Assembly: GCF_000348785.1 (NCBI RefSeq)
Contig: NC_020520.1
Location: 3,596,001 to 3,660,000 of the forward strand
Source: Ilumatobacter coccineus YM16-304
Lineage (GTDB): Bacteria; Actinomycetota; Acidimicrobiia; Acidimicrobiales; Ilumatobacteraceae
DNA length: 64,000 nt
Direction: 5' to 3'
Shown here: positions 7,576 to 20,552 of the stretch, one piece after another
Numbering within the stretch: position 1 is the stretch's first letter
Layout: each line of letters starts with the position of its first letter
Notes under the pieces: generated by a model
Databases searched by the model: none
The model's input: the letters and a program-made list of their open reading frames with translations, nothing else
What the model was told of the DNA's origin: nothing
Made by a program: the position numbers and the translations under genes

Positions 7576-7614
7576 GGACCGGACGGTTTGTCTCTGAGAC
7601 AAACCGTCCGGTCC
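7576..7614. repeat. Perfect 39-bp palindrome, copy 1
   Basis: Two perfect 19-bp arms (GGACCGGACGGTTTGTCTC and its complement) flank a single T. It sits between the convergent thiolase and GAF-ANTAR genes, where it could end transcription from both sides. A near-identical 35-bp palindrome occurs at 18040-18074 between divergent genes, which argues for a dispersed repeat or a protein site rather than only a terminator. Confidence 0.85.
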
Positions 7615-9083: not shown

Positions 9084-10121
9084 TCACTCCCCCGGCGATG
9101 CGGTGGACGAAGCGGATGTCGACAGGAGTTTGGCGAGGGCGCTCTCGGATCGATCGAGCCACTTCGAGCGACGCGACGAACGCCACGCGTCGTCGATCTG
9201 CTCGTCGTCGGCCTGCAGCGCGACCGGATGGACGTACGAGTTGCGAGCGACGGCGCGCGTGTTGCCGAGGCTGTCGGCTGCTTCGTCGACGGCGTCGAGC
9301 GGACGCGAGCCGGCCGCGCGCGCCTCGACCACGACGCTCGACGCGCCCCACGTCCTGAAGTCCTTCGCCGAGAATGCCGGCCCGGCGTGTTCGACGATGA
9401 AATCGTTCACGTCCGACGCCGTCGCCCGGCGCCGCTCGCCTGCCGCGTCGCCGTCGAACCAGAACAGTTCGTCGTCGGCGTCGGATGCGAGTTCGGTCAG
9501 AATCGCGACGAGGTCTTCGTCGTCGATCACCACGGTCCGTTCCTGGCCGCTCTTGGCCGTGTACTCCAACGTCATCACGTCGTCGTCGATGACGTGTTCG
9601 ACCGTCAGCGTCGTGGCGCCGTAGTGGCCCTTCTCGGCCGACCCGTGATTGCCGACGCGCAGCAGGCACCGATCGATCAGAGCCACGGCTGCCGCCACGG
9701 CGTGCGAGCGGCTGCCCACCGGCTCCGTCAGCGCCTGCTCGATCGCGCGCCGCACGAGGACCACGGCGCGCCCGAAGTAGGGCAGACGGGCGTACTTGAG
9801 TCCGTCGCAGTGCTCACGGAAGTCGTCGTGATAGCGGTACTGCTTGCGGCCGGCCTGGTCGGTGCCCGACGCTTGCAGGTAGCCACGCTCGTGGGGTGAG
9901 ATCCACACGTCGTTCCACGCTGGCGGAATCGCCAGTGCCTCGATGCGGGCGCGCACGTCGTCGCCGACCGCGGCACCGAATGCGTCGTGGTAGCTGAAAC
10001 CGCTCCCTCTGCGGCGCCGCCCGATGCCCGGCTCGGCATCGGACAGGTGGACGAGTCCGGCTGCAGGGGCGAGCACCGCCGGGTCGCGTTCGATGAGTTC
10101 TTCGGGAACACGGACGACCAT
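9084..10121 (-). CDS. DNA topoisomerase IB (poxvirus/eukaryote-like type)
   Basis: A 345-residue bacterial TopIB. The N-terminal domain shows GSGFSYHDAFG and PPAWNDVWISPHERGYLQASGTDQAGRKQYRYH, the classic TopIB signature region. The catalytic domain has RVGN, the Lys-bearing strand, FSAKDFRTWGAS and the active-site tyrosine in TRAVARNSYVHP. It relaxes supercoils by forming a 3'-phosphotyrosyl intermediate. ATG 10121 (MVVRVPEELIERDP) is chosen over the extension to 10202. The 49-residue membrane peptide gene lies 52 bp upstream on the same strand, so they may be cotranscribed. Confidence 0.92.
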   Translation of the reverse strand: MVVRVPEELIERDPAVLAPAAGLVHLSDAEPGIGRRRRGSGFSYHDAFGAAVGDDVRARIEALAIPPAWNDVWISPHERGYLQASGTDQAGRKQYRYHDDFREHCDGLKYARLPYFGRAVVLVRRAIEQALTEPVGSRSHAVAAAVALIDRCLLRVGNHGSAEKGHYGATTLTVEHVIDDDVMTLEYTAKSGQERTVVIDDEDLVAILTELASDADDELFWFDGDAAGERRRATASDVNDFIVEHAGPAFSAKDFRTWGASSVVVEARAAGSRPLDAVDEAADSLGNTRAVARNSYVHPVALQADDEQIDDAWRSSRRSKWLDRSESALAKLLSTSASSTASPGE

Positions 10122-10173
10122 CGCCGATGTCAGCCCGCTGCCCGTGGTTGCATTCGTCCCGCCATCATCGGCG

Positions 10174-10323
10174 TCAACGTCGCTGGAAGATGCTGTATCC
10201 ACCGGGCCCGACGAGCAGGCCGACGACGATGAGGAGCAGCCCGAAGAGGAGCTGCCCTTGGATGATCTGCACGATGCCGACGATCACGAGGATGACGGCG
10301 ATGAGCCAGAGAATGAATGCCAC
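10174..10323 (-). CDS. Small hydrophobic membrane peptide with GPGGYSIF ending (49 aa)
   Basis: A short ORF starts with GTG at 10323 behind an excellent ribosome binding site (GCAGGAG, about 5 nt upstream). It encodes 49 residues: VAFILWLIAVILVIVG, a central IQGQ turn, LLFGLLLIVVGLLV and the tail GPGGYSIFQRR. Two membrane segments with the GPGGYS ending are typical of a small actinobacterial membrane peptide family of unknown function. The length, start signal and hydrophobic pattern together support it as a gene. It is just upstream of topoisomerase IB. Confidence 0.75.
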   Translation of the reverse strand: MAFILWLIAVILVIVGIVQIIQGQLLFGLLLIVVGLLVGPGGYSIFQRR

Positions 10324-10388: not shown

Positions 10389-10515
10389 CCGGATCAGTAC
10401 CCGATGCAGACCGCTCTATTCGTCGAACGGCGCGGTTCTTGCAGGGGCTCGCTGCAGTGCTCGCGGGCACCGTGTCGTCCGCGTGTGGTCTCGATGAATC
10501 GTGTTCGGCGACGCT

Positions 10516-10521
10516 GGGTAC
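10516..10521 (+). promoter_or_regulatory. Possible SigB/F-type -10 element of the acidic peptide gene
   Basis: GGGTAC ends exactly 9 nt before the ATG at 10531. The same GGGTAC-N9-ATG geometry occurs at 20516, where a matching -35 is also present. Here no GTTT is found 14-17 nt upstream, so the call rests on the -10 alone. Confidence 0.35.
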
Positions 10522-10530
10522 ACGGACCGC

Positions 10531-10710
10531 ATGAGTACCGACAACGCATCCATCACCGACAACGACATCACGTCCGGCCCCACCGAGGACGACGAGAACC
10601 TCGACGCCCCCGGCGAACACTCGCAAGACACCGGCGACGAACCGACGGAGGACGACGAGAACCTCGACGCCCCCGGCGAACACTCCCAAGACACCGGCGA
10701 CGAGGCCTGA
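10531..10710 (+). CDS. Acidic 59-aa peptide built from two tandem 21-residue repeats
   Basis: After a 16-residue Ser/Thr/Asp lead, the protein consists of two identical 21-residue units beginning PTEDDENLDAPGEHSQDTG, then Ala. The DNA units (10579-10641 and 10642-10704) differ at four positions, all silent third bases, which argues that the peptide is translated and selected. It is highly acidic, without Cys, aromatic or hydrophobic residues, and is probably disordered. The function is unknown. The following oxygenase frame begins 1 nt after its stop, implying coupled translation. Confidence 0.65.
   Translation: MSTDNASITDNDITSGPTEDDENLDAPGEHSQDTGDEPTEDDENLDAPGEHSQDTGDEA
10579..10704 (+). 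repeat. Two 63-bp in-frame tandem repeats
   Basis: Adjacent 63-bp units, 59 of 63 positions identical, encode exactly the same 21 residues. They lie wholly inside the acidic peptide gene. Confidence 0.9.
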
Positions 10711-10711
10711 C

Positions 10712-11881
10712 CTGTCGCGTTCACCCCGACCCCCGCTCAGCGCGCCGTCGACCCGCACGGTCGGCGGCGCGCTGGCGCGCTGCGTCGGAGACGTCGAGGA
10801 GTTCGAGACCCGCTACTGGGGTCGCGAACCCCTGCTCCGTCGCGCGGGCTCCATCCCGGCCGACGCGTTCAGCGACGTCTTCTCGAGCAGCCACCTCGAC
10901 GACCTGCTCGCGAGCGGCATCCGCCGGCCGATCGTCCGCGTGGTCCGAGACGGTCAGCCCATCGCCGCCGAGAAGTACACCGAACGGGCACGGCTCGGCG
11001 GCTGGGACCTTCGCGACGTCATCGCTCCCGACCGCGTCGCCGAACAGTTCGCAGCCGGAGCGACCGTGGTCGCGCAGTCGCTGCACCGCACCCATCCGAC
11101 CGTTCGCTCCTTCGTCGACGATCTGCGTGCCGACGTGTCGCATCCCCTCCAGGCCAACGCCTACCTCACCCCGCCGAACTCGACCGGCCTCGCACCGCAC
11201 TCCGATCGTCACGACGTCATCGTGCTGCAACTGGAGGGTTCCAAGCAGTGGGCCGTGGACGGGCTCGGTGAGTTCGAGCTGCGACCTGGAGACGTGCTCT
11301 ACGTCCCCGCCGGTCACGAGCACGCAGCGACATCGACCGAACGATCGTCGCTCCACCTGACCATCGGGTTGTTGCGCGTGACCCATCGAGCCGTGATCGA
11401 ACGCGTCCTGCGGTCCGCGCCGAGCACGCTCGACGACCCGCTCCCCCTCCGCTACGCCGACGAGAGTGACGATCCGCTCGTCGCGAGCATCGACGCGGCC
11501 CTCGCCGACGTCCGGACACACCTCGAGTCTGTGGTCCCGAGCGAGGTCGCCCGCACCGAACGCCGGCGGCGCAGCACTTCGACCACGTCTGCTCGACGGC
11601 CGCTCACCGCCGCGATCGCGCTGCAGGATCTCGATGGTGCCGCCACGGTGGTGCGCGCCGGAAGTCCGTGGACGACGACCCGCCCCGACGACTCGACCAT
11701 CCGGGTCGAAGCCGACGGCCGAAGGCTCACGGCACCGCGATCGTGCGAGCGAGCGCTGGCGCTGGTTCGCACCGGCGACGGCGCGCGAGTCGACGAGTTG
11801 CCCGGCCTCGACCACGACAGCCGTGTGCTGCTGGCCCGTCGTCTCGTCTCGACCGGTCTGTGTCGACTGCTCGAACGCTGA
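10712..11881 (+). CDS. Cupin/JmjC-like 2-oxoglutarate oxygenase (ribosomal oxygenase type)
   Basis: About 389 residues of the cupin-4/JmjC group that includes bacterial ROXA, which hydroxylates ribosomal proteins. The N-terminal hallmark YWGREPLLRR is encoded near 10816, and the iron site is H-x-D in LAPHSDRHD plus a distal His in PAGHEHA. In this frame there is no ATG, GTG or TTG between the stop at 10532 and GTG 10940, which would cut off the conserved N-terminus. CTG 10712, preceded by GAGG and 1 nt after the acidic gene stop, is the best start. The C-terminal third has a winged-helix-like character typical of the group. Confidence 0.75.
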   Translation: MSRSPRPPLSAPSTRTVGGALARCVGDVEEFETRYWGREPLLRRAGSIPADAFSDVFSSSHLDDLLASGIRRPIVRVVRDGQPIAAEKYTERARLGGWDLRDVIAPDRVAEQFAAGATVVAQSLHRTHPTVRSFVDDLRADVSHPLQANAYLTPPNSTGLAPHSDRHDVIVLQLEGSKQWAVDGLGEFELRPGDVLYVPAGHEHAATSTERSSLHLTIGLLRVTHRAVIERVLRSAPSTLDDPLPLRYADESDDPLVASIDAALADVRTHLESVVPSEVARTERRRRSTSTTSARRPLTAAIALQDLDGAATVVRAGSPWTTTRPDDSTIRVEADGRRLTAPRSCERALALVRTGDGARVDELPGLDHDSRVLLARRLVSTGLCRLLER

Positions 11882-11905
11882 AGAGGCGACCGTCGATCAC
11901 GTGCG

Positions 11906-12253
11906 TCACGGCCGATCGCCGACCTCGACGCCGAGGAAGTCGAACAACCCGCTCACCCGCAACACCGTCTCCTGGAACGGTGTCGCCACCACCACGCGGA
12001 GGGTGCAGCCACGCCGGTCGAGTGCATGACGAAGGCGGACGAGACTGCCCAGCGCCGCCGAATCGATGATCGTCGTCCGGCTCAGGTCGACCGTGAGTTG
12101 CTCGATGGCCTCCGACAGCGCCGTGGCCGCCTTGTCGAAGCGACCGACCTGCAACCGATCGAACTCTCCGGCGACGCGCAGTTCGGCACGCGGGTGACCG
12201 ATCTCGCCACGCACGACGATCTCGAGGTCGAGCTGACCACTCGGTTCCCTCAT
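11906..12253 (-). CDS. Anti-sigma factor antagonist (STAS, RsbV-like)
   Basis: A 115-residue single STAS domain (AELRVAGEFDR ... LTVDLSRTTIIDSAALGSLVRL), with the phosphorylatable serine in IIDSAALGSL. In the dephosphorylated form it should bind the adjacent RsbW-like kinase and free the sigma factor. Its ATG overlaps the anti-sigma stop codon by 4 bp (ATGA). It is the last gene of the nine-gene operon. Confidence 0.9.
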   Translation of the reverse strand: MREPSGQLDLEIVVRGEIGHPRAELRVAGEFDRLQVGRFDKAATALSEAIEQLTVDLSRTTIIDSAALGSLVRLRHALDRRGCTLRVVVATPFQETVLRVSGLFDFLGVEVGDRP

Positions 12254-12693
12254 CGGACGATCCCGAATCCGGCGAGTGGCAGCGTGACCGTCGTGCCTCG
12301 TTCGGTCACGTCGAACTCGATCGCGGGAACCAGCGCTCGAGCCAGTTCGAGTCCTCGCCCGCGTTCGAGTGGGCCGTCGGCCGACGGTGCGTTGCCGGTC
12401 GACCCGCTGCGAGCTTGGAGTCCGGCGCCCGAGTCGATCACACGCACCACGTCACTGGCCCCGAACTCGATCTCGAGCGCGATCGACTCGTCCATCCCGA
12501 GGCGGACGTGTTCGTCGATCGCGTTGGCGACGATCTCGGTGAGCGCGACGAGGAACGCGCTCTCGGCATCGTCGTCACGAAACACGGTGACCCGGCGGAC
12601 GGCCGAGCGACTGATGGCGATCGACACCAGCGTCGGTGGGATGTGGATCCGACAACATCCGGTGGTGGGCACAGCGCGCACAGCCTCGGTCAC
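12250..12693 (-). CDS. Anti-sigma factor serine kinase (RsbW-like, GHKL ATPase)
   Basis: A 147-residue GHKL-fold kinase with an N-box (ALTEIVANAIDEHV), a G1 box (VIDSGAGL) and a glycine-rich GRGLELARALV segment. It should bind and inhibit the sigma factor encoded immediately upstream and phosphorylate the STAS protein immediately downstream. GTG 12693 overlaps the sigma stop by 4 bp (GTGA). The open frame upstream of this start runs antisense-like inside the sigma gene and is not coding. Confidence 0.9.
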   Translation of the reverse strand: MTEAVRAVPTTGCCRIHIPPTLVSIAISRSAVRRVTVFRDDDAESAFLVALTEIVANAIDEHVRLGMDESIALEIEFGASDVVRVIDSGAGLQARSGSTGNAPSADGPLERGRGLELARALVPAIEFDVTERGTTVTLPLAGFGIVR

Positions 12694-13397
12694 GACACGT
12701 CCTCCTGTTCTTCCAGTTCGCCGCGTAGCCGTTCGAGCGCCTCGGCGATGCGGCGATGCACCTGGGGTTGCGAGATCCCGATGAGGCGCCCGATCTCGGC
12801 CTGGGTCAGACCATCTCGGTATCGATACTCGATCAGCGCCCGTTGCTCGTCGTTCAGGGTCGAGAGCGAGTGCGACAGCAATGCCGCGTCCATCGCATCG
12901 GCGGGATCCGACACGTCGATCGAAGCGTGCTCGACCGACGACGGGAAACGGGCTTCGCGTGCACGAACCGCTTCCATGACCCGTTCGCGGTCGAAACCGG
13001 TCTCGTCGGCGACATCGCCGACCGTCGGCGACCGTCCGTTGCGCGACGTCAGCCGTTCCGAGGCTGCGGCGACCGTGATCGAATCCTCTTGGAGCGAACG
13101 CGGCACCCTGACACCCCACCCGTGCGTGCGCAGATGCTTCTTGAGCTCACCGTTGATCGTGACCACCGCGAAGCGGATGAACGCGCCCCGCTCCGGGTCG
13201 TATCGACGGCAGGCGAAGAGCAGACCGAGTCGTGCGACCTGCCGCAGATCGTCGTCGACGACCGCGCCGAAACTGAACCGACGGGCCAGGCGGTCGGCGA
13301 GGTCGAGGTGCCGCTCGAACAGTTCGTTCTCCGCGTCGGAGCCCGCCGGTTCCGCTGCGTCGCTGTCGTCGATCACGACGGTGTCGATCCCGCTCAT
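12690..13397 (-). CDS. SigB/SigF-type alternative RNA polymerase sigma factor
   Basis: A 235-residue group 3 sigma factor. Region 2 contains HLDLADRLARRFSF ... DDDLRQVARLGLLFACRRYDPERGAFIRFAV. Region 3 is RVPRSLQED ... PTVGDVADETGFDRERV, and region 4 ends with a helix-turn-helix (LTQAEIGRLIGISQPQVHRRIAEALERL). By family it should recognise GTTT-N14-17-GGGTA-type promoters for general stress or envelope genes. It lies between an unknown protein and its anti-sigma kinase, overlapping both by 4 bp. Confidence 0.92.
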   Translation of the reverse strand: MSGIDTVVIDDSDAAEPAGSDAENELFERHLDLADRLARRFSFGAVVDDDLRQVARLGLLFACRRYDPERGAFIRFAVVTINGELKKHLRTHGWGVRVPRSLQEDSITVAAASERLTSRNGRSPTVGDVADETGFDRERVMEAVRAREARFPSSVEHASIDVSDPADAMDAALLSHSLSTLNDEQRALIEYRYRDGLTQAEIGRLIGISQPQVHRRIAEALERLRGELEEQEDVS

Positions 13398-13798
13398 CCC
13401 AACGCCGCGGTCAGACTCACGTGCGGTGGATGTTCGGACACCTCCACCTCGAAGAACGACTCGACGAGCTCACGCTTGTCGCCGAGCGGGGCTGAGTCGC
13501 TGATGCCGTCTGCGGACTCCACGTCGAATGCGAGCACGAGGCGACGATCGTCGAGCCGGACGCTGGCCGACTCGATCCGGCGTTCCTGCAACGCGTCGAT
13601 GGTGTCTTCGAGCGGAAGATCGAGTGACTCGAGGGTCGCGAGGTCCGCATCGGCAACGGTTCCCACCTGGTCGACCACGGCGAGCAGCACGCGGAAGATC
13701 ATCGATGCGTCGCAGTCGCTGAACTCGCAGCGGACCTCGTCGACGTGTTCGCCGGGTGCGTCGCGTTCGCCGGGCGCGTCGCGTTCGTCAGCGGTCAC
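13394..13798 (-). CDS. Uncharacterised 134-aa protein in the partner-switching operon
   Basis: I do not recognise this family. It starts with GTG overlapping the phosphatase stop by 4 bp and ends overlapping the sigma start by 4 bp, so it is translated in the cascade. The N-terminus has a short direct repeat (ERDAPGERDAPGE). The rest is an acidic mixed alpha/beta domain with CEFSDCDASMIFRVLLAVVDQV and RLDDRRLVLAFDVES. Position suggests a modulator of the phosphatase or of the sigma/anti-sigma pair; this is inference only. Confidence 0.75.
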   Translation of the reverse strand: MTADERDAPGERDAPGEHVDEVRCEFSDCDASMIFRVLLAVVDQVGTVADADLATLESLDLPLEDTIDALQERRIESASVRLDDRRLVLAFDVESADGISDSAPLGDKRELVESFFEVEVSEHPPHVSLTAALG

Positions 13799-14925
13799 GC
13801 CGCGCTCGTCTCTCGTCGGACGACGACCGCGGTGATGTCGTCGGTCACCTTGCCGCTGCCGATGAATCCCAGGACGTCGGCGATCACCTCGTGCGCCGTG
13901 CGCAGCGGTGCCTTCCACCAGTGGGCTTCGAGCCGCTCGCGAAGTCGGTCGGCGCTGTACGCCGTGCCATCGGGAGCGTGCGAGTTCGTCGGACCGTCGG
14001 AGAACAGCACGATGCCGTCGCCACCGTCGAGCGGCCCCTGGCGCTGCAGTCGGTACTCGTGCGAGCCCACGACGCCGAGCGGGAGCTCCGCGGTGAGCTC
14101 GAGACGCGACGCCTGCGAGCCCGTGACCCTCCACGCCGGCTCGTGGCCGGCGTTGACGAACTCGACGCCGTCGGCGTCGATGCGACAGGCGAGGCCGGTC
14201 ACGAATCGATCGCCGCCGAACTCGTCGAACAGCGCGGCATCGGCTGCGGCCATCTGCGCGTCGAGCCCGCCCCCTCGTCGACGTTCGTTCCGGATCGCGG
14301 CGAGCGCCATGACACTCGCCGTGGCGGCAGCGAGCCCGTGGCCCATCCCGTCGAGCGAGTACACCCAGATGGCACCGTCGGCAGCCGCGTAGTCGAACGC
14401 GTCGCCGGCCACCTCGTACGCGGGTTCCAACACGCTGCCGATCGCGTAGTCGCCGAGTCGATCGGCGCGGTTCGGCAGCGAGGCCCACTGCATCTCGGCC
14501 GCCACGCTCATCGACGAGCGCCGGCGAATGCGTTCGAGCTCCTCGAAACGATTGCGATGGTCGTTGGCGATCGGCCCGAGTTGCGCCATGACATCGTCGG
14601 GCGGCAGGTCGGTCGTAACCGGCACGCGGACCACGAGCACCGGCTGCTCCCGGTCGGAGATCGGTACCCATCGCATCGAGCCGTCGACGTACGGGCGGTT
14701 CTCGAGCATCGACACACGGAGTTCGTCGTCGAGCAGTCGCGCCGATCCTCCGTTGGTGCCGGTCGTGACCTCGACCAGTTGCTCGAATGCGTGATCGATC
14801 ACGAACAGCGCCGCATCGTCACCGAAGATGCCGAGCAGTGCGTTCGCGACGTCGGCGTATCCGCGTGCTTCAACGACGCTCAGGAGATCAGACACGACGT
14901 CACCGTAATCCCCGCATCGGCTCAT
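13795..14925 (-). CDS. PP2C-family serine phosphatase (RsbU/SpoIIE-like)
   Basis: A 376-residue protein. The N-terminal 145 residues look like a PAS/GAF-type or phosphatase-regulatory sensor region (IFGDDAALFVIDHAFEQLVEV). A PP2C-type SpoIIE domain follows, with metal-binding aspartates in AGDAFDY, SLDGMGHG, FSDGP and VTDDITAVVV. It should dephosphorylate the STAS antagonist to activate the sigma factor. ATG 14925 overlaps the methyltransferase stop by 4 bp; the frame extends upstream but only over that gene. Confidence 0.88.
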   Translation of the reverse strand: MSRCGDYGDVVSDLLSVVEARGYADVANALLGIFGDDAALFVIDHAFEQLVEVTTGTNGGSARLLDDELRVSMLENRPYVDGSMRWVPISDREQPVLVVRVPVTTDLPPDDVMAQLGPIANDHRNRFEELERIRRRSSMSVAAEMQWASLPNRADRLGDYAIGSVLEPAYEVAGDAFDYAAADGAIWVYSLDGMGHGLAAATASVMALAAIRNERRRGGGLDAQMAAADAALFDEFGGDRFVTGLACRIDADGVEFVNAGHEPAWRVTGSQASRLELTAELPLGVVGSHEYRLQRQGPLDGGDGIVLFSDGPTNSHAPDGTAYSADRLRERLEAHWWKAPLRTAHEVIADVLGFIGSGKVTDDITAVVVRRETSAA

Positions 14926-15518
14926 CGGCAGCGCGTCCAGACCACGGCCTCGAAGGCTGCGTCGACGCATCGACTCGTCGGTTCGAGCCAGTCGAGTTCA
15001 TCGAGCCACGGCGCGATGTCGGCGCCGGCGCGCGGGTAGTTGGTCGGGCCGGTGTAGTGCACCGAGAGCAGGTGTCCGTCGAGTTCGAGCCAGTCGTCGA
15101 GCCGGTCGATCGCTCGACGGCCGTTGTCGTCGCCGAGGTAGTAGGCGACCTCGGACCACACGACGAGGTCGCCGGTGCCGTCGGGCCAGTAGTCGGGAAA
15201 CCGTTCGTGTCGCACCTCGACGTGAGGTTGCCCGGCGAGTCGCCGGCGAGCCTCCTCGACCGCGCCGGCGTGCAGATCGAAGGCGATCAGCCGGTCACAA
15301 CGATCGGCCAGGCGGCGGGTCAACGCACCGTTCGAGCAGCCCGGTTCGATCGCGCTCCGGTAGCGCTGACGCGGCAGCAGTGCGAGCGAGATCTCGTACT
15401 TGCGCTGTTCGTACCACGACGTGTCGAACCCCCACGGGTCGAGATCGTCGGCGTACATCGAGGTGAAGTACTCGTCGGGCATGTCGCTGGTCGGCTCGGG
15501 TTCGACGGTCGAGCTCAT
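14922..15518 (-). CDS. SAM-dependent methyltransferase (NodS-like)
   Basis: A 198-residue class I methyltransferase. The conserved N-terminal DPWGFDTSWYEQRKY is typical of NodS-like enzymes, followed by the SAM-binding strand AIEPGCSNGALTRRLA and LIAFDLHAGAVEEAR. NodS N-methylates deacetylated chito-oligosaccharides, and here a PIG-L deacetylase and a glycosyltransferase lie in the same operon, so a modified amino-sugar product is plausible. It starts at ATG 15518 with a 4-bp overlap onto the acyl-CoA dehydrogenase-like gene. Confidence 0.85.
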   Translation of the reverse strand: MSSTVEPEPTSDMPDEYFTSMYADDLDPWGFDTSWYEQRKYEISLALLPRQRYRSAIEPGCSNGALTRRLADRCDRLIAFDLHAGAVEEARRRLAGQPHVEVRHERFPDYWPDGTGDLVVWSEVAYYLGDDNGRRAIDRLDDWLELDGHLLSVHYTGPTNYPRAGADIAPWLDELDWLEPTSRCVDAAFEAVVWTRCR

Positions 15519-16474
15519 CGTGTCTCGCTGTCCGGGTTCGTGCACTCGACGCCATCGACGATCGCCCCGAGTTCTCGTTCGCCGTGGTGCTGTCGGAGGT
15601 ACAGGTGGACGTCGGCGAAGCGTGTCGCGAGCGCTGCGTCGGAGGCGAACGGACGAGGGCCGAACGCTCGGCTGAACCGATCGAGCACGTCGGAGCACGT
15701 GCGCTCGACCGCGTGGCGCAGCGATCGGGCGCGTCGCTGCGCCGCCACGCGGTCGTCCGGTGACGCGTCGATCTCGTTACCGGCTGCGGCGAGCAGCGCG
15801 TCGAGCGTCCAGCTCGCCGCTTCCAGCGCGCCTAGCTGAGCACGACGGTGTGGATCGGATGCTCCGAGACGGTGCGCAACATCGATCACGCCCAGCGTGC
15901 CACCGGCCCAGCACGCGGCCGGGCCGCAGGCACCGTGCCAGAACCCCACCCGGTCGAGGTACCAGCCGGGGCAGCCCACGATGCGATCGGCATCGAGCGG
16001 GTCGTCGTCGAACCGAACGGCACCGGTCGCCGTGTCTGCGAGCGCAACCGTCGACCAGCCGCTCGTGTCGAACGTGATACTCGAACGCATCTCGAGATCG
16101 ATGTCGATGAGCAGCGGACGTCCGGTCGCGTCCGACACCGACACGAGCGCTCGGTCGACGATGCCCAGGCCGCTGCAGAAGGGCGACGTTCCGCTGAGCG
16201 ACGCCCGGTCGCCGCTCAGCGACGCCGTCCCGGCAGATGCCCACACGCCGTACAACGCACCGCCGACCGGCGCGGTGCCCGCCTCGTGCAGGATCGACAT
16301 CGCGTCGCAGTGCGCCTCGGCCAAGCGGGCGACACCGACGGGCATCGTGCGAGCGATCCCGCTCAGCGCACGATGGCGATCGGCGGTGGCGCCGCAACCG
16401 GGGTGTGGCAGGTCGAGTCGTCCCGAGGCGAGCAGTTCTCGCACGGTGTCGACGCTGTTCCCGTTCACGGTCAC
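15515..16474 (-). CDS. Acyl-CoA dehydrogenase-like protein
   Basis: A 319-residue protein with weak but recognisable acyl-CoA dehydrogenase layout: an N-terminal helical part, a middle beta region (GTSPFCSGLGIVDRALVSV ... TSGWSTVALADTATGAVRF) and a helical C-terminal half (GACGPAACWAGGTLGVIDVAHRLG). It is shorter than standard members (about 380 residues) and I cannot place a catalytic glutamate, so it may be specialised. GTG 16474 overlaps the PIG-L stop by 4 bp. It groups with sugar-modifying genes, so a role in lipid or amino-sugar modification is inferred. Confidence 0.7.
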   Translation of the reverse strand: MTVNGNSVDTVRELLASGRLDLPHPGCGATADRHRALSGIARTMPVGVARLAEAHCDAMSILHEAGTAPVGGALYGVWASAGTASLSGDRASLSGTSPFCSGLGIVDRALVSVSDATGRPLLIDIDLEMRSSITFDTSGWSTVALADTATGAVRFDDDPLDADRIVGCPGWYLDRVGFWHGACGPAACWAGGTLGVIDVAHRLGASDPHRRAQLGALEAASWTLDALLAAAGNEIDASPDDRVAAQRRARSLRHAVERTCSDVLDRFSRAFGPRPFASDAALATRFADVHLYLRQHHGERELGAIVDGVECTNPDSETR

Positions 16475-17211
16475 GATCCCACCTCGCGCCGGTCGCTGCG
16501 TTCGACGTTCGCCGAGACGAAGTACTCCGCTAGCCACTCGGCCGGCTCGACCGTGGATTCGTCGAGAATCGGCGCGACCCCGTCACCCGCCTGGAACTGG
16601 CTGACGTGACAGCGGATGGCGTCGCGTTTGGCCGCTGCCGCCGAGGGGCCGAGATCCAACGCGACGAGCTCGCAGCCGTCGAACACGTCGCTCGAACGCC
16701 AGTGCCACGTCCAGAACAGCGAGAACACGAGCGTTGCCGACCGCGCGTCCGCCACCGCCAGTGCTGCACGTCCACACGCCTCGTGGTCCGGGTGTCCGTC
16801 GTTCGTCCAAGTCGTCACGACGAGATCGTCGGGTCGGACGATGTCGAGTAGGGCGTCGACGAGCGCCGACTCGTGTTCCGACACCCGGCCGTCGGGCAAC
16901 CCGAGTCGGTGGGTCGCCGACGGCGCCACGTTCAACTCGCGAAGCGCTGCACGTTGCTCCGATCGTCGGGTCGCTGCCAATGCGGGGTCGCCTGCAGGGT
17001 CGTACGCCGCGTCGCCGTCGGTGACCGCGACCACGATCACGTCGAGCCCGCGGGCGCGCTGCGTTGCGATGAGCCCGCCCGACGAGAGTGACTCGTCGTC
17101 GGGGTGCGGTGCGACAACGACGGTGCGGCGAGCGGGTGGCGTCCACGGGCGCGCTGCGGCCAGCGTGGTCGACCAACGATCTGCCAGCGTCGACATCGAG
17201 CTCGTCGTCAT
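16471..17211 (-). CDS. PIG-L family N-acetylglucosamine-type deacetylase
   Basis: A 246-residue LmbE/PIG-L protein. The zinc motif PHPDDE lies at residues 35-40, and the second metal site is in WTNDGHPDHEACGRAA. Family members deacetylate GlcNAc-linked substrates, for example MshB and BshB in thiol biosynthesis. The companions here (GT2, acyl-CoA dehydrogenase-like protein, NodS-like methyltransferase) do not match mycothiol genes, so the substrate is probably a different amino-sugar conjugate. ATG 17211 overlaps the GT2 stop by 4 bp. Confidence 0.88.
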   Translation of the reverse strand: MTTSSMSTLADRWSTTLAAARPWTPPARRTVVVAPHPDDESLSSGGLIATQRARGLDVIVVAVTDGDAAYDPAGDPALAATRRSEQRAALRELNVAPSATHRLGLPDGRVSEHESALVDALLDIVRPDDLVVTTWTNDGHPDHEACGRAALAVADARSATLVFSLFWTWHWRSSDVFDGCELVALDLGPSAAAAKRDAIRCHVSQFQAGDGVAPILDESTVEPAEWLAEYFVSANVERSDRREVGS

Positions 17212-17918
17212 GCAACCGGCTCGATCGACGCGTCGAGTGCAGCGAGGTTGGCGGCAAAGCCGTTCGGAGCTCGGCCTCGGATCCGTGCGCTCGTCGTGAC
17301 GCACAACGACGTCGTCGACTCGACCGGCCCGAAGAGCCGGAGGCGGTTCCACAGGTCGTGATCTTCCCCGGTCGCCAGCGCGTTCCACTCTCCGACCGCC
17401 AGGAAGGCGTCGGCTCGGAAGCCGAGGTTCGCGCCGTGCACGTGAGGATGGGAGCCGTCGTCGCCTCGTTCGTACGAACGCTCGAACGACTCGACCAGCG
17501 CGAGGCTGGTCGATTCGTAGCGCAGTCGGACGATGCCGGCGACGGCGACCACACCGCGGGCGGCGAGTTCGAGTTGCCTCGTCAACCAGTCGGGGTCGAC
17601 CGTGGTGTCGGCGTCGGTGTTGGCCATCCACACGCGACTCGGATCGTCGACGAGATCGGACAGCACACAGCGAGCACCGAATTGACGCGCCGCCCCGGCG
17701 TTGCCGCGATCGGTCTCGATGACGACATCGCCAGCGCGACCGGCGAGTCGATCGAGCGCTCGCCGCACGGTGTCGTCCCGGCATCGGTCGGCGACGACGA
17801 CCACGGTCGACCGCACGTCGGCGGGGAGCTGTGAGCGGGCGATGTTGATGCTGTCGAGGCAGTCGCCGATCGATGCTGCTTCATCTCTGGCGGGAACCAC
17901 GACGGCGATGTGCGACAT
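17208..17918 (-). CDS. Glycosyltransferase family 2 protein
   Basis: A 236-residue GT-A fold enzyme beginning SHIAVVVPARDEAASIGDCLDS, with the nucleotide-sugar/metal site in WMANTDADTTV and the acceptor region GEDHDLWNRL. It is probably cytoplasmic, since no membrane helices are visible. ATG 17918 is chosen because homology starts there; the frame runs on to 18134 only because the palindrome at 18040 is open in that frame. It is the first gene of the nine-gene overlapping operon. Confidence 0.87.
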   Translation of the reverse strand: MSHIAVVVPARDEAASIGDCLDSINIARSQLPADVRSTVVVVADRCRDDTVRRALDRLAGRAGDVVIETDRGNAGAARQFGARCVLSDLVDDPSRVWMANTDADTTVDPDWLTRQLELAARGVVAVAGIVRLRYESTSLALVESFERSYERGDDGSHPHVHGANLGFRADAFLAVGEWNALATGEDHDLWNRLRLFGPVESTTSLCVTTSARIRGRAPNGFAANLAALDASIEPVA

Positions 17919-18039
17919 CGTCGGGGCGGGTTGGTGACGGCGCGGGGGGAAACGCATGACCGGTGAGTACCCCGCCCGGCACGTTTTGATCGATCGAATG
18001 AAACCGACAGCTTCCGGGTACGTCCACGAGGTGATCCGC

Positions 18040-18074
18040 ACCGGACGGTTTGTCTCAGAGACAAACCGTCCGGT
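18040..18074. repeat. Perfect 35-bp palindrome, copy 2
   Basis: Two perfect 17-bp arms (ACCGGACGGTTTGTCTC and complement) flank a single A. It shares its arm sequence with the 39-bp palindrome at 7576-7614. It sits between the divergent GT2-led operon and the leader ORF/membrane protein pair, where a terminator is not expected. Confidence 0.85.
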
Positions 18075-18101
18075 CACCGACCGACCAGACAGGAGCGTGA
18101 C

Positions 18102-18149
18102 ATGCAACATCGCCATCGACCCATCGACCGCCACGTCGAGCTGTCGTGA
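18102..18149 (+). CDS. 15-codon leader ORF coupled to the next gene
   Basis: ATG 18102 follows a good ribosome binding site (CAGGAG, about 6 nt upstream) and encodes MQHRHRPIDRHVELS. Its TGA overlaps the GTG start of the following membrane protein by 4 bp (GTGA). No strong binding site precedes that GTG, so translation of the short ORF probably feeds the next gene. The peptide is His/Arg-rich. Confidence 0.5.
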   Translation: MQHRHRPIDRHVELS

Positions 18150-18388
18150 CCGGCGCGAGCGCTGTCGTCATCGTGCTGACGGTGATCGTCGCCGGTGCGG
18201 CCATCGTGTGGTTCATGGCGACGAAGCGGCATCCGGAGCGCACGGCTGGGCATTCCGATGCGCCGCCGACCACGACGTCGGACGAGCTCTACGACGGGGC
18301 CGACCGTCCCGCCGGCCCCGACGCCGAGGTCATGGATCCCGATCTCCTCGGCGGCGACGGTCGACCGCCGCGTGCCGACGACGCCTGA
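18146..18388 (+). CDS. Small single-pass membrane protein (80 aa)
   Basis: The N-terminus is one hydrophobic segment (SAVVIVLTVIVAGAAIVWFMA), followed by a KR anchor and an acidic, proline-rich, disordered cytoplasmic tail (about 50 residues ending DGRPPRADDA). No family is recognised. GTG 18146 overlaps the stop of the 15-codon leader ORF. It lies downstream of the 35-bp palindrome and opposite the sigma/glyco operon. Confidence 0.65.
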   Translation: MTGASAVVIVLTVIVAGAAIVWFMATKRHPERTAGHSDAPPTTTSDELYDGADRPAGPDAEVMDPDLLGGDGRPPRADDA

Positions 18389-18435
18389 CGCCGTCGGCGC
18401 CATCCGGCACCTCCGGCTCGCCTGCGAGCGAGTGT

Positions 18436-19014
18436 TCAGGAGTCGGCGGACGAGAACACCGACACGATCTTCGTGTTGAACGCCGGCAGATCGTCGGGGT
18501 TTCGACTCGTGATCAGCGAGTTCGAACCGTGCGTACACACGACGACCTCTTCGTCGACCCACTCACCGCCTGCGTTCTCGATGTCGGTGCGCAAGCTGGA
18601 CCAACTCGTGAGACGACGTCCGTCGACCAGGCCCGCCTCCACCAGGGTCCACGGGGCGTGGCAGATGGCAGCGACCGGTTTACCGGCGTCGAAGAACGAC
18701 GTGATGAAGCGAAGCGCCGCCTCGTCCATCCGCAACGCGTCCGGGTTCGCAACCCCACCGGGGAGCACCAACGCGTCGTAGTCACGCACGTCGGCGTCGC
18801 TGGTCGCGACGGTCGCTTGGAACACGTCGGCTTTGTCGAGGTGATCGAAACCCTGTACGTCGCCCGTCTCGATCGCCACCAGCACGGGCGTCCCGCCCGC
18901 TTGCTCGATGGCATCCCACGGCTTGGTCAACTCGACCTGCTCGACTCCCTCGTTCGCAGTGACGAACGCGATCGTCTTGCCGTTCAGTGGTTCAGCTGAG
19001 GTGTTGTTGCTCAT
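18436..19014 (-). CDS. DJ-1/PfpI family protein (YhbO/PfpI-like stress protein)
   Basis: A 192-residue class I glutamine amidotransferase-like protein. The nucleophile elbow AAICHAPW places the reactive Cys at residue 118 and His at 119; an acidic residue in ANEGVEQVEL matches the PfpI triad. Family members repair glycated or methylglyoxal-damaged macromolecules or act as chaperones and proteases under stress. It is preceded by TTGGAG about 10 nt before the ATG. Its stress role suits the surrounding island. Confidence 0.9.
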   Translation of the reverse strand: MSNNTSAEPLNGKTIAFVTANEGVEQVELTKPWDAIEQAGGTPVLVAIETGDVQGFDHLDKADVFQATVATSDADVRDYDALVLPGGVANPDALRMDEAALRFITSFFDAGKPVAAICHAPWTLVEAGLVDGRRLTSWSSLRTDIENAGGEWVDEEVVVCTHGSNSLITSRNPDDLPAFNTKIVSVFSSADS

Positions 19015-19145
19015 GTTGTTTCGACTCCAATCTGTTGGGCCGCAGTTGCGGCGTTCGATGTTGAACTCGGATTCCGAAGCGGTACCCGGTTCCAGTGATT
19101 TGATGCGTGACGCAGGTTCCGTTGCGGAGGCCTCGCTCCTTGCGT

Positions 19146-19865
19146 TCAGGCGATGAAGGAGACGTCGGCGATGTCGCCGCGCCCCGTCGCGAGCATTGCG
19201 TTGAGCTGATCGATCACCGGTTGCGCCGGGCGCGTCCAGAACTCGATCGCCAGTGTGAGCGACCCGCCCTCGTCGGGGGTCAGTCGTGTGACCTTGATCG
19301 GCGGAAGCGCGAGCGTCTGGATCTCGGAGAGCACCGCCGCACCGTCACCTGACGGGTTGACCTCGACGACCAATGTGGCCGGAGCGTGGCGTCGAGCATC
19401 GACCCAGTTCGAGAGCGGCTTGAGCACGGCGAGGGCGACGAGCGCGATGGTCGTCGCGACGGCTGCGGCGATCCAGAACCCGACGCCGCTCGCCAGTCCG
19501 ACGGCGGCAGCGGTCCAGAGCGACGTCGCGGTCGTGATGCCGCGCACCGTGCCTCGGTGTTTGAGGATGGCTCCGCCACCGATGAACCCGACGCCCGGCG
19601 CCACATACGAGGCGATGCGAGACACGTCGACGGTGACGTTGTTCGAGCCGCCGTCGGTGATGAAGTCGTCGAACGCCCCGACCGAGATGACACCGAAGAG
19701 GGCGGCGCCGACGCTGAGCAGCAGGTGCGTGCGAAAGCCCGCGTCCTGGCCGGCGTACTCGCGCTCGAGACCCACCGCTCCTCCGAGCAGTGCGCCGACG
19801 CCGAGCCGCAGCACGATCTCCCAGACGCCGAGGTCACTCATGGCGACCCGTCTGGTGTCTCGCAC
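19146..19865 (-). CDS. MgtC/SapB family membrane protein
   Basis: A 239-residue protein. The N-terminal 130 residues form the MgtC membrane domain with the signature ALLGGAVGLEREYAGQDAGFRTHLLLSVGAALF and GVGFIGGGAILKHRGTVRGITTATSLW. A soluble ACT-like C-terminal domain follows (about residues 165-239). Family members support growth in low magnesium or acid and modulate ATP synthase. GTG 19865 has GGAG five bases upstream; ATG 19841 is an alternative start. Confidence 0.88.
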   Translation of the reverse strand: MRDTRRVAMSDLGVWEIVLRLGVGALLGGAVGLEREYAGQDAGFRTHLLLSVGAALFGVISVGAFDDFITDGGSNNVTVDVSRIASYVAPGVGFIGGGAILKHRGTVRGITTATSLWTAAAVGLASGVGFWIAAAVATTIALVALAVLKPLSNWVDARRHAPATLVVEVNPSGDGAAVLSEIQTLALPPIKVTRLTPDEGGSLTLAIEFWTRPAQPVIDQLNAMLATGRGDIADVSFIA

Positions 19866-19914
19866 TCACGGTGGCTCCGCGTCGGCGGTTCGTGGCTGCT
19901 CGTCCGGTCGTGGC

Positions 19915-20151
19915 TCAGCCGGTGGTGCTGATGCGATCGGCGGCTGCGTCGCCGACGTCGTCGATCTTGCCGGTGACTTCGCTCACGGCGGTGTCGGCCA
20001 CCTGACCGATGTTGCTCTTCACCTCGTCGACGACCGGTTTGGTCTTGCTCTTCACGCTCGAGGTGATCTGTGCCCGCTGCTTCTCGCTGAGTCCGGCGCC
20101 CACGGCAAAGCCGAGCACGCCACCCATCACGAGACCCTTCAAGAACTTCAC
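19915..20151 (-). CDS. YtxH-like small membrane-associated protein
   Basis: A 78-residue protein with a short hydrophobic N-terminus (VKFLKGLVMGGVLGFAVGAGL) followed by a Lys/Asp/Val-rich amphipathic helix region (SVKSKTKPVVDEVKSNIGQVADTAVSEV) resembling YtxH and LEA-like stress proteins. GTG 20151 overlaps the stop of the preceding gene by 4 bp (GTGA), so both are made from the SigB/F-type promoter at 20526-20552. Confidence 0.65.
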   Translation of the reverse strand: MKFLKGLVMGGVLGFAVGAGLSEKQRAQITSSVKSKTKPVVDEVKSNIGQVADTAVSEVTGKIDDVGDAAADRISTTG

Positions 20152-20516
20152 GCCGCCACCTTCAGGTCGGTCTGCGCACTGGGCGCAGCGTCGCGGCCGC
20201 GGTACCACGTGAGGGCACCGGCGAGTCCGAGGATCATGAGCACCGAAACGAGCGCTCCCTTGGGATGGCTGGCCACGAAACGACCGCTTCGGCGAGCGGT
20301 GCGAGCGACGAAGCGTCCACTGACGACGGTCGCGGTGCCAGCGGCATCGGCGAGATCGGTGGCGGCGTCGACGACGGACGAGCCAGCTCCCTCGACCGAA
20401 TCGATCACGTTCGACAGGTCAATGCTGCTCACGTCGATCGTGTCGACGGTTGATCTGACAGCGTCTGCAACGCCGCCAAGCTTGTTCGAGAGTGTGTCGG
20501 CGGAAAGTGTGTCCAT
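20148..20516 (-). CDS. Putative stress-induced single-pass membrane protein (122 aa)
   Basis: No named family is recognised. The N-terminal 75 residues are an amphipathic, Val/Asp/Ser-rich region (LGGVADAVRSTVDTIDVSSIDL). A basic stretch follows (GRFVARTARRSGRFVASHPKG), then one membrane helix (ALVSVLMILGLAGALTWY). The gene begins 9 nt after a GGGTAC -10 box with GTTT 15 nt further up, so its mRNA is probably leaderless and made by a SigB/F-type sigma factor such as the one at 12690-13397. Confidence 0.65.
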   Translation of the reverse strand: MDTLSADTLSNKLGGVADAVRSTVDTIDVSSIDLSNVIDSVEGAGSSVVDAATDLADAAGTATVVSGRFVARTARRSGRFVASHPKGALVSVLMILGLAGALTWYRGRDAAPSAQTDLKVAA

Positions 20517-20525
20517 GACAGATCA

Positions 20526-20552
20526 GTACCCGGATGAGGCGCGATCAAACCC
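20526..20552 (-). promoter_or_regulatory. SigB/SigF-type promoter
   Basis: On the minus strand the sequence reads GGGTTT, 15 nt, then GGGTAC, a close match to the actinobacterial SigF/SigB consensus GTTT-N14-17-GGGTAT. The -10 ends 9 nt before ATG 20516, placing the start site about 2-4 nt before the codon. Confidence 0.65.

Follow-up and report, generated by a model that had tools for sequence, protein, structure and literature searches.

The locus considered here is a string of nine genes on the minus strand, running from position 17918 to position 11906 of a window (the whole stretch of DNA analysed, 64,000 nucleotides) of the genome of Ilumatobacter coccineus YM16-304, which is a single contig of 4,830,181 bases. 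Its closest described relatives are the operons of SigB/SigF-type sigma factors, such as rsbV–rsbW–sigB, spoIIA and the mycobacterial usfX–sigF, with which it has in common a kinase, a STAS antagonist, a PP2C phosphatase and a sigma factor, together with their key residues. A second likeness concerns enzyme logic: in NodB–NodS and in the mycothiol and bacillithiol pathways, an amino sugar is deacetylated and its amine is then modified. A third concerns regulation, as the SigF regulon of Mycobacterium smegmatis is described as having stress genes as targets and GTTT-N14-19-GGGTA as promoter consensus (PMC4694148).

As read from the sequences of relatives, the nine-gene string is made up of two separable cassettes, a four-enzyme module and a SigB/SigF-type switch. 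We consider it rather probable that an operon under the control of a general-stress sigma switch has here been fused to the switch itself. The two cassettes seem to be tied by regulation, the module apparently being an output of the stress sigma factor rather than the source of a signal that the switch senses. The fusion ties the module directly to a stress sigma factor and thereby provides a testable prediction of when its product would be made.

Two cassettes in one string of genes

All nine open reading frames (ORFs) are present, in the order assigned to them by a sequence-only reading of this DNA:

17208..17918, minus strand: GT2-family glycosyltransferase, first gene (Pfam PF00535, 49 bits, cut-off 23.3); its homologue adjoins the next three genes in relatives
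16471..17211, minus strand: PIG-L/LmbE-type N-deacetylase (Pfam PF02585, 97.2 bits; HPDD and HPDH motifs in the translation)
15515..16474, minus strand: short flavoenzyme of predicted acyl-CoA dehydrogenase (ACAD) fold, 319 residues, used as module marker (predicted model and PDB matches)
14922..15518, minus strand: NodS-like S-adenosylmethionine-dependent methyltransferase (Pfam PF05401, 57 bits, cut-off 24)
13795..14925, minus strand: SpoIIE/RsbU-type PP2C phosphatase (Pfam PF07228, 114 bits); likely true start GTG 14895
13394..13798, minus strand: 'unknown' protein of 134 residues, predicted RsbW/SpoIIAB (GHKL) fold (AlphaFold2 model)
12690..13397, minus strand: probable SigB/SigF-type sigma factor (Pfam sigma-70 regions 2, 3 and 4 above cut-off)
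12250..12693, minus strand: RsbW-type anti-sigma kinase (Pfam PF13581, HATPase_c_2, 39.9 bits, cut-off 27.4)
11906..12253, minus strand: RsbV-type STAS anti-anti-sigma factor, DSAA with Ser65 (Pfam PF13466/PF01740)

Followed from the glycosyltransferase to RsbV, the eight junctions read ATGA, GTGA, ATGA, ATGA, GTGA, ATGA, GTGA and ATGA. By a crude gene caller, the window contains 32 pairs of neighbouring genes on the same strand. Of the 28 pairs outside the string, three permit a 4-base overlap; seven or eight in succession go far past this background, with the caveat that short overlaps are usual within tight operons. The doubt as to the eighth concerns the junction that links the two halves. 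The N-terminus of the Ilumatobacter nonamiensis phosphatase (MADLL) aligns to VSDLL, which starts at an internal GTG (codon 11, position 14895); directly 5′ of this GTG, the sequence likewise aligns with that of the leader in I. nonamiensis (GGGATTACGGTG versus GGGATACGGTG). Because homologous start and leader both point to GTG 14895, the overlap between the methyltransferase and phosphatase genes (14922–14925) is doubtful; it probably reflects a false start, the GTG leaving a gap of 26 bases. Accordingly, seven of the eight overlaps initially reported are solid, while the one joining the halves probably is not. Nor do 4-base overlaps demonstrate the stoichiometric production that had been deduced from them.

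The nearest named relative among the matches listed is I. nonamiensis (67% identity in the ACAD marker protein), where all nine proteins are conserved with 54–74% identity (locus L113). The order is GT2–PIG-L–ACAD–methyltransferase, then an opposite-strand STAS-PAS gene (L113:11529-12203), then SpoIIE–unknown–sigma–RsbW–RsbV; apart from the junction so split, six of the seven others (not ACAD/methyltransferase) have a 4-base overlap. The STAS-PAS gene is possibly a further input of the switch. In G263, a genome of the Acidimicrobiales, the five-gene switch stands alone in the same order (L088; overlaps of 4, 8, 4 and 4 bases), and the enzyme module lies on another contig, at least 13 kb away by the distances to the contig ends, with a gene of the catalase cluster between GT2 and PIG-L. 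G153, of the Ilumatobacteraceae, has katE–methyltransferase–ACAD–PIG-L with a divergent GT2 gene and a sigma homologue, beyond which no switch gene was found in its 19.9-kb locus. In Aquihabitans (L125), a SpoIIE phosphatase gene identified by Pfam precedes the module, and HATPase and STAS genes, recognized by reading translations with no family search, follow it.

Given the opposite-strand gene between the methyltransferase and SpoIIE genes of I. nonamiensis, we rejected single-operon coupling as a conserved feature. The unbroken coupling on which the sequence-only reading had built does not extend to relatives, given this interruption, with a separate promoter-like site, and the different contigs in G263. 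The enzyme genes and the sigma module are nevertheless adjacent in I. nonamiensis, contrary to the eventuality that they might never be so in other genomes. As to a promoter between the methyltransferase and phosphatase genes, which had been named as an observation that would speak against the link, a promoter-like site occurs in I. nonamiensis and none was found in I. coccineus: a scan for sigma-70 promoters and terminators, which does not cover SigF-type promoters, detected no element there, and GGGTAC is absent from the right strand of this interval. In both I. nonamiensis and G263 the phosphatase gene has retained a promoter-like site of its own, and we therefore regard the fusion into one operon as probably derived.

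Alternatively, the two cassettes may be chance neighbours in a stress island, with no specific functional tie, a deletion of the spacer having brought them into one string. The separating gene of I. nonamiensis and the different contigs of G263 would fit this explanation, as would the fact that a SigB/F gene lies beside the module in only two (I. coccineus and G153) of the six genomes with an ACAD-like protein among 296 Acidimicrobiia. However, sigma homologues at E≤1e-25 occur in only 73 of these 296 genomes, so that proximity is not expected by chance, and a GGGTAC site precedes the enzyme genes even where the cassettes are unlinked, as in G263. We regard mere neighbourhood as unlikely, and favour the fusion of a switch to its output.

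SigF-type promoter-like sites

GGGTAC occurs on the right strand in seven of nine upstream regions examined, and six of these seven also have G-W-W 16–17 nt before it. The carriers are the regions upstream of GT2 in I. coccineus, I. nonamiensis and G263, of SpoIIE in I. nonamiensis and G263, and of katE and csbD in G263. A first genome-wide pattern, with a trailing T, had a single match. The sites of I. nonamiensis and G263 suggested GWWT-N15/16-GGGTAC, which occurs 14 times in the I. coccineus genome (eight N16 and six N15); the reversed-pattern control had no match. Four of the 14 fall within 10397–20550, around the operon, where about 0.03 would be expected if they were evenly spread. These four, and the candidate promoter of the operon itself, are:

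17967..17991, minus strand: candidate SigF-type operon promoter, GATC-N15-GGGTAC, with GT2 starting about 50 nt after the -10 word
17996..18021, plus strand: candidate divergent SigF-type promoter, GAAT-N16-GGGTAC, one of the eight N16 sites in 4.83 Mb
10496..10521, plus strand: SigF-type site before a small acidic ORF (genome-wide pattern search)
10397..10421, minus strand: SigF-type site, about 200 nt upstream of the ORF for topoisomerase IB, 9084-10202 (pattern search; ORF by Pfam)
20526..20550, minus strand: SigF-type site GTTT-N15-GGGTAC, the -10 word starting 15 nt before ORF 20148-20516

Elsewhere in the genome, two sites lie in a csbD divergent region, one before a PRC-barrel-like gene and one before a gene for an LLM-like oxidoreductase.

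On a wider scale, GTT-N13-19-GGGTA was sought upstream of the module in 106 of 109 regions (L090, L115 and L120 were dropped as too short or too long). It was present in 13, against a mean of 0.85 and a maximum of 4 after shuffling; the loci as a whole have 0.084 such sites per kb of each strand.

Several observations weigh against a stress-sigma output. Base composition alone would predict roughly 40 sites (about 20 per spacer), more than the 14 present, and for six of these 14 (L197, L198, L201, L205, L207 and L208) no downstream target is evident, so that the functional argument rests on clustering and placement. The -35 of the operon itself (GATC) is weak and falls outside the strict GWWT pattern, and both G153 regions have GGGTA instead of GGGTAC. 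The antisense strand carries GTT-N13-19-GGGTA in 22 of the 106 regions, more than the sense strand, which points to stress-rich neighbourhoods rather than to the module alone. Finally, only seven of 108 loci have a SigB/F (at least 80 bits) or SpoIIE (at least 40 bits) gene at 5 kb or less from the module, a set that excludes the I. coccineus window itself.

The proposed tie between enzyme module and stress regulation is supported by the adjacency in I. nonamiensis, the SigF-type sites and the stress-gene neighbours. By the known mechanism of the family, RsbW would hold the sigma factor and phosphorylate RsbV; under stress, the phosphatase would dephosphorylate RsbV, which would then displace RsbW. 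Transcription of the operon by the freed sigma factor could begin at the GGGTAC-type site that precedes GT2, in which case switch and enzymes would rise together in a positive loop.

Some further features of these regions may be recorded. The ORF 20148-20516, behind a GTTT-N15-GGGTACT site, encodes 122 residues and has no Pfam match. The csbD gene shares its divergent region, with two SigF-type sites, with the gene of a small membrane-like protein (G000:C1:692120-692328; L193, L195). In Mycobacterium loci (e.g. L145, L149, L185), GTT-N-GGGTA stands about 85–90 nt upstream of the module and faces away from it, probably serving a divergent gene. A perfect palindrome, ACGGTTTGTCTC-W-GAGACAAACCGT, lies shortly before the operon, at window positions 18045-18069, and recurs at 7583-7607; with up to three mismatches it is found at 55 places in the genome, and it may be a dispersed repeat or a terminator. 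The 16.6-kb I. nonamiensis locus yielded no match to its exact core. A divergent plus-strand transcript would carry this palindrome, followed by an apparent 15-codon frame whose stop overlaps the GTG of an 80-residue protein with a membrane-like N-terminus (15-codon frame and 80-residue region, window 18102-18388).

The partner switch and its 134-residue protein

The assignment of the last block to a SigB/F-type partner switch is supported: kinase boxes, STAS serine, PP2C aspartates and a probable SigB/F-type sigma factor can all be read in the sequence. Across three homologues of each protein, the phosphatase has invariant D175, D192, D310, D362 and D363, as expected of metal-site aspartates; RsbW has an invariant N box (N57), G1 box (D87/G89/G91) and G2 box (G112/G114), as expected of an ATP site; and Ser65 in the DSAA motif of RsbV, a candidate phosphorylatable serine, is invariant as well. 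For the sigma factor, the best NCBIfam match is TIGR02980, at 164.6 bits and below its cut-off of 234.35.

The enzyme product had also been imagined as a ligand sensed by the switch, and one may ask whether the product or an intermediate is a signal perceived by the phosphatase or by the 134-residue protein. The placement in one operon would suit such feedback, and SpoIIE genes adjoin the module in Aquihabitans and in G394 (L103) too. On the other hand, Pfam detects no ligand domain in the N-terminus of the phosphatase, the switch of G263 stands apart from the module, and the module is widespread with no switch beside it. The sensed-ligand proposal thus finds no support, and we judge feedback of this kind very improbable beside an output of the stress sigma factor.

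For the 134-residue protein, Pfam gives no match, and a profile search against PDB sequences yielded no meaningful one. Its AlphaFold2 models, built from a two-sequence alignment, range in mean confidence (pLDDT) from 81 for the best of five to 38 for the worst. In Foldseek, all 17 matches of the model at E≤0.001 are RsbW, UsfX or SpoIIAB chains (6m36_G, RsbW, E 3.3e-5), the best being Bacillus subtilis RsbW, mycobacterial UsfX and SpoIIAB; superposition on RsbW 6m37_C (VIA) gives Z 12.8 and a root-mean-square deviation of 2.2 over 106 residues. An RsbW/SpoIIAB fold is therefore predicted, and the model's match to RsbW speaks against a novel fold, which we rejected. A conserved N box, DxGxG and GxG are absent from the two Ilumatobacter proteins and from the G263 protein in the same position. 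Comparison by hhalign of the profile of the 134-residue protein with that of the operon RsbW gave a probability below 0.1%, for very shallow profiles of three rows each.

A clear homologue was found in I. nonamiensis alone. Besides its own genome, a single-sequence search of the 296 class genomes gave five weak matches (E 3.8e-4 to 0.0097), G263 not among them. BLAST against the G263 counterpart, of similar size, likewise gave no match (E 4.1), and their kinship rests on position and overall alignment shape, at 19% identity. A three-row profile, which contains the I. coccineus and G263 proteins and matches both by construction, found one further, weak match in G007, whose short locus has no sigma-cassette gene. 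An RsbW-fold protein lacking the ATP boxes would probably modulate the contact of RsbW with the sigma factor or with RsbV, and would be an unusual part of a textbook switch.

The enzyme module and its relation to described systems

The module of GT2, PIG-L, ACAD and NodS-like methyltransferase genes was seen in Actinomycetota (including mycobacteria), Acidobacteriota, Acinetobacter (among them A. baylyi, L153) and Legionella. All four genes are together in 70 of the 108 ACAD loci examined (48/80 named-species, 3/4 plasmid and 19/24 other loci); three genes are present in 18 and two in 11, and the nine with ACAD alone comprise seven of Mycobacterium and two short acidobacterial contigs. The named-species loci, at least 80 matches kept, are not a random sample, Mycobacterium being heavily represented, and L016 and L121 are probably one genome counted twice. 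Gene order is permuted between loci, and PIG-L and methyltransferase form a single ORF in three. ACAD-like proteins occur in 48 of 396 genomes of the phylum at E≤1e-10 (25 of the 48 being weak partial matches, 1e-11 to 1e-17) and in 51 plasmid records.

Neighbours were counted over 53 groups, each locus with no species name forming its own group and contigs below 9 kb being left out. The commonest is a long catalase (29 loci, 19/53 groups), followed by SDR (25 loci, 13 groups), a CheR-PAS protein (30 loci, 11 groups) and topoisomerase IB (21 loci, 8 groups). On plasmids, trehalose genes, DUF421, ferritin-like and PRC-barrel proteins are annotated near the module, and within the window genes for topoisomerase IB, DJ-1/PfpI and MgtC flank the operon. 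An LLM-like oxidoreductase (ISDHFHPW, read from sequence) recurs near the module (L019, L180) and in I. coccineus lies behind a distant SigF-type site (L206). Searches of the open-access literature with combined terms found no paper on the four-enzyme module. It is widespread yet apparently unstudied, and occurs in many actinomycetes, mycobacteria, acidobacteria and Acinetobacter, often beside catalase or other stress genes.

The ACAD protein has no Pfam match above cut-off; its AlphaFold2 model (pLDDT 93.8) has a predicted acyl-CoA dehydrogenase fold. Its best PDB matches (Z 30.0 to 28.1 in the best 50) are TdsC/DszC monooxygenases and acyl-CoA dehydrogenases, and sequence and fold matches taken together include TdsC, DszC, MsuC and nitrososynthases, monooxygenases and dehydrogenases being tied in score. 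S101 (at least 90%) and H297 are nearly or fully invariant and may correspond to the Ser/His pair of group D monooxygenases; dehydrogenases have a catalytic Glu. The deacetylase belongs to PIG-L by both PF02585 and its HPDD motif; the NCBIfam equivalog cut-offs for BshB, MshB and NodS were not reached.

These families would allow the following chemistry. GT2 may attach an N-acetylamino sugar to an acceptor, PIG-L may then strip the acetyl group, and the NodS-like enzyme may methylate the amine; ACAD would oxidize the product, by amine N-oxidation or dehydrogenation, oxidation of the freed amine being a guess. The end product would be an undescribed N-methylated amino-sugar compound formed under stress, and could be a small metabolite or a glycolipid. 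A variant, which we hold possible though less probable than not, is that the enzymes build an envelope glycolipid or a cell-wall decoration and no soluble metabolite. GT2 and NodS-like families do act on membrane or oligosaccharide substrates elsewhere; yet the recurring unit consists of four enzymes, and no transporter or lipid-carrier gene appears among the most widely shared neighbour clusters, not all of which are annotated. Equally tentative is a broader proposal: that the cassette makes, in several phyla, one undescribed N-methylated, flavin-oxidized amino-sugar compound serving as a general stress protectant, that it is under SigB/SigF control in Actinomycetota, and that an RsbW-fold protein blind to ATP takes part in the Ilumatobacter switch, where it might form one side of an asymmetric anti-sigma dimer.

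Compared with described systems, ACAD shares its predicted fold over about 300 residues (Z 28–30) with the group D flavin monooxygenases (DszC/TdsC and the nitrososynthases DnmZ/KijD3) and with acyl-CoA dehydrogenases, but is shorter, at 319 residues against roughly 360–420 in the solved chains listed. Unlike NodB–NodS and the mycothiol and bacillithiol pathways, the module has a PIG-L in place of a NodB fold and an additional flavoenzyme, with no acyltransferase or ligase. Relative to the M. smegmatis SigF regulon, in which the portions of the source covered do not name the four-enzyme module (PMC4694148), the -10 here is GGGTAC and the -35 GAA, GAT or GTT/GTA. With respect to the SigB/SigF operons, finally, the genes are in the order phosphatase, RsbW-like protein, sigma, RsbW and RsbV, and the same string contains an extra protein of predicted RsbW fold that lacks the ATP boxes and, upstream, four metabolic genes.

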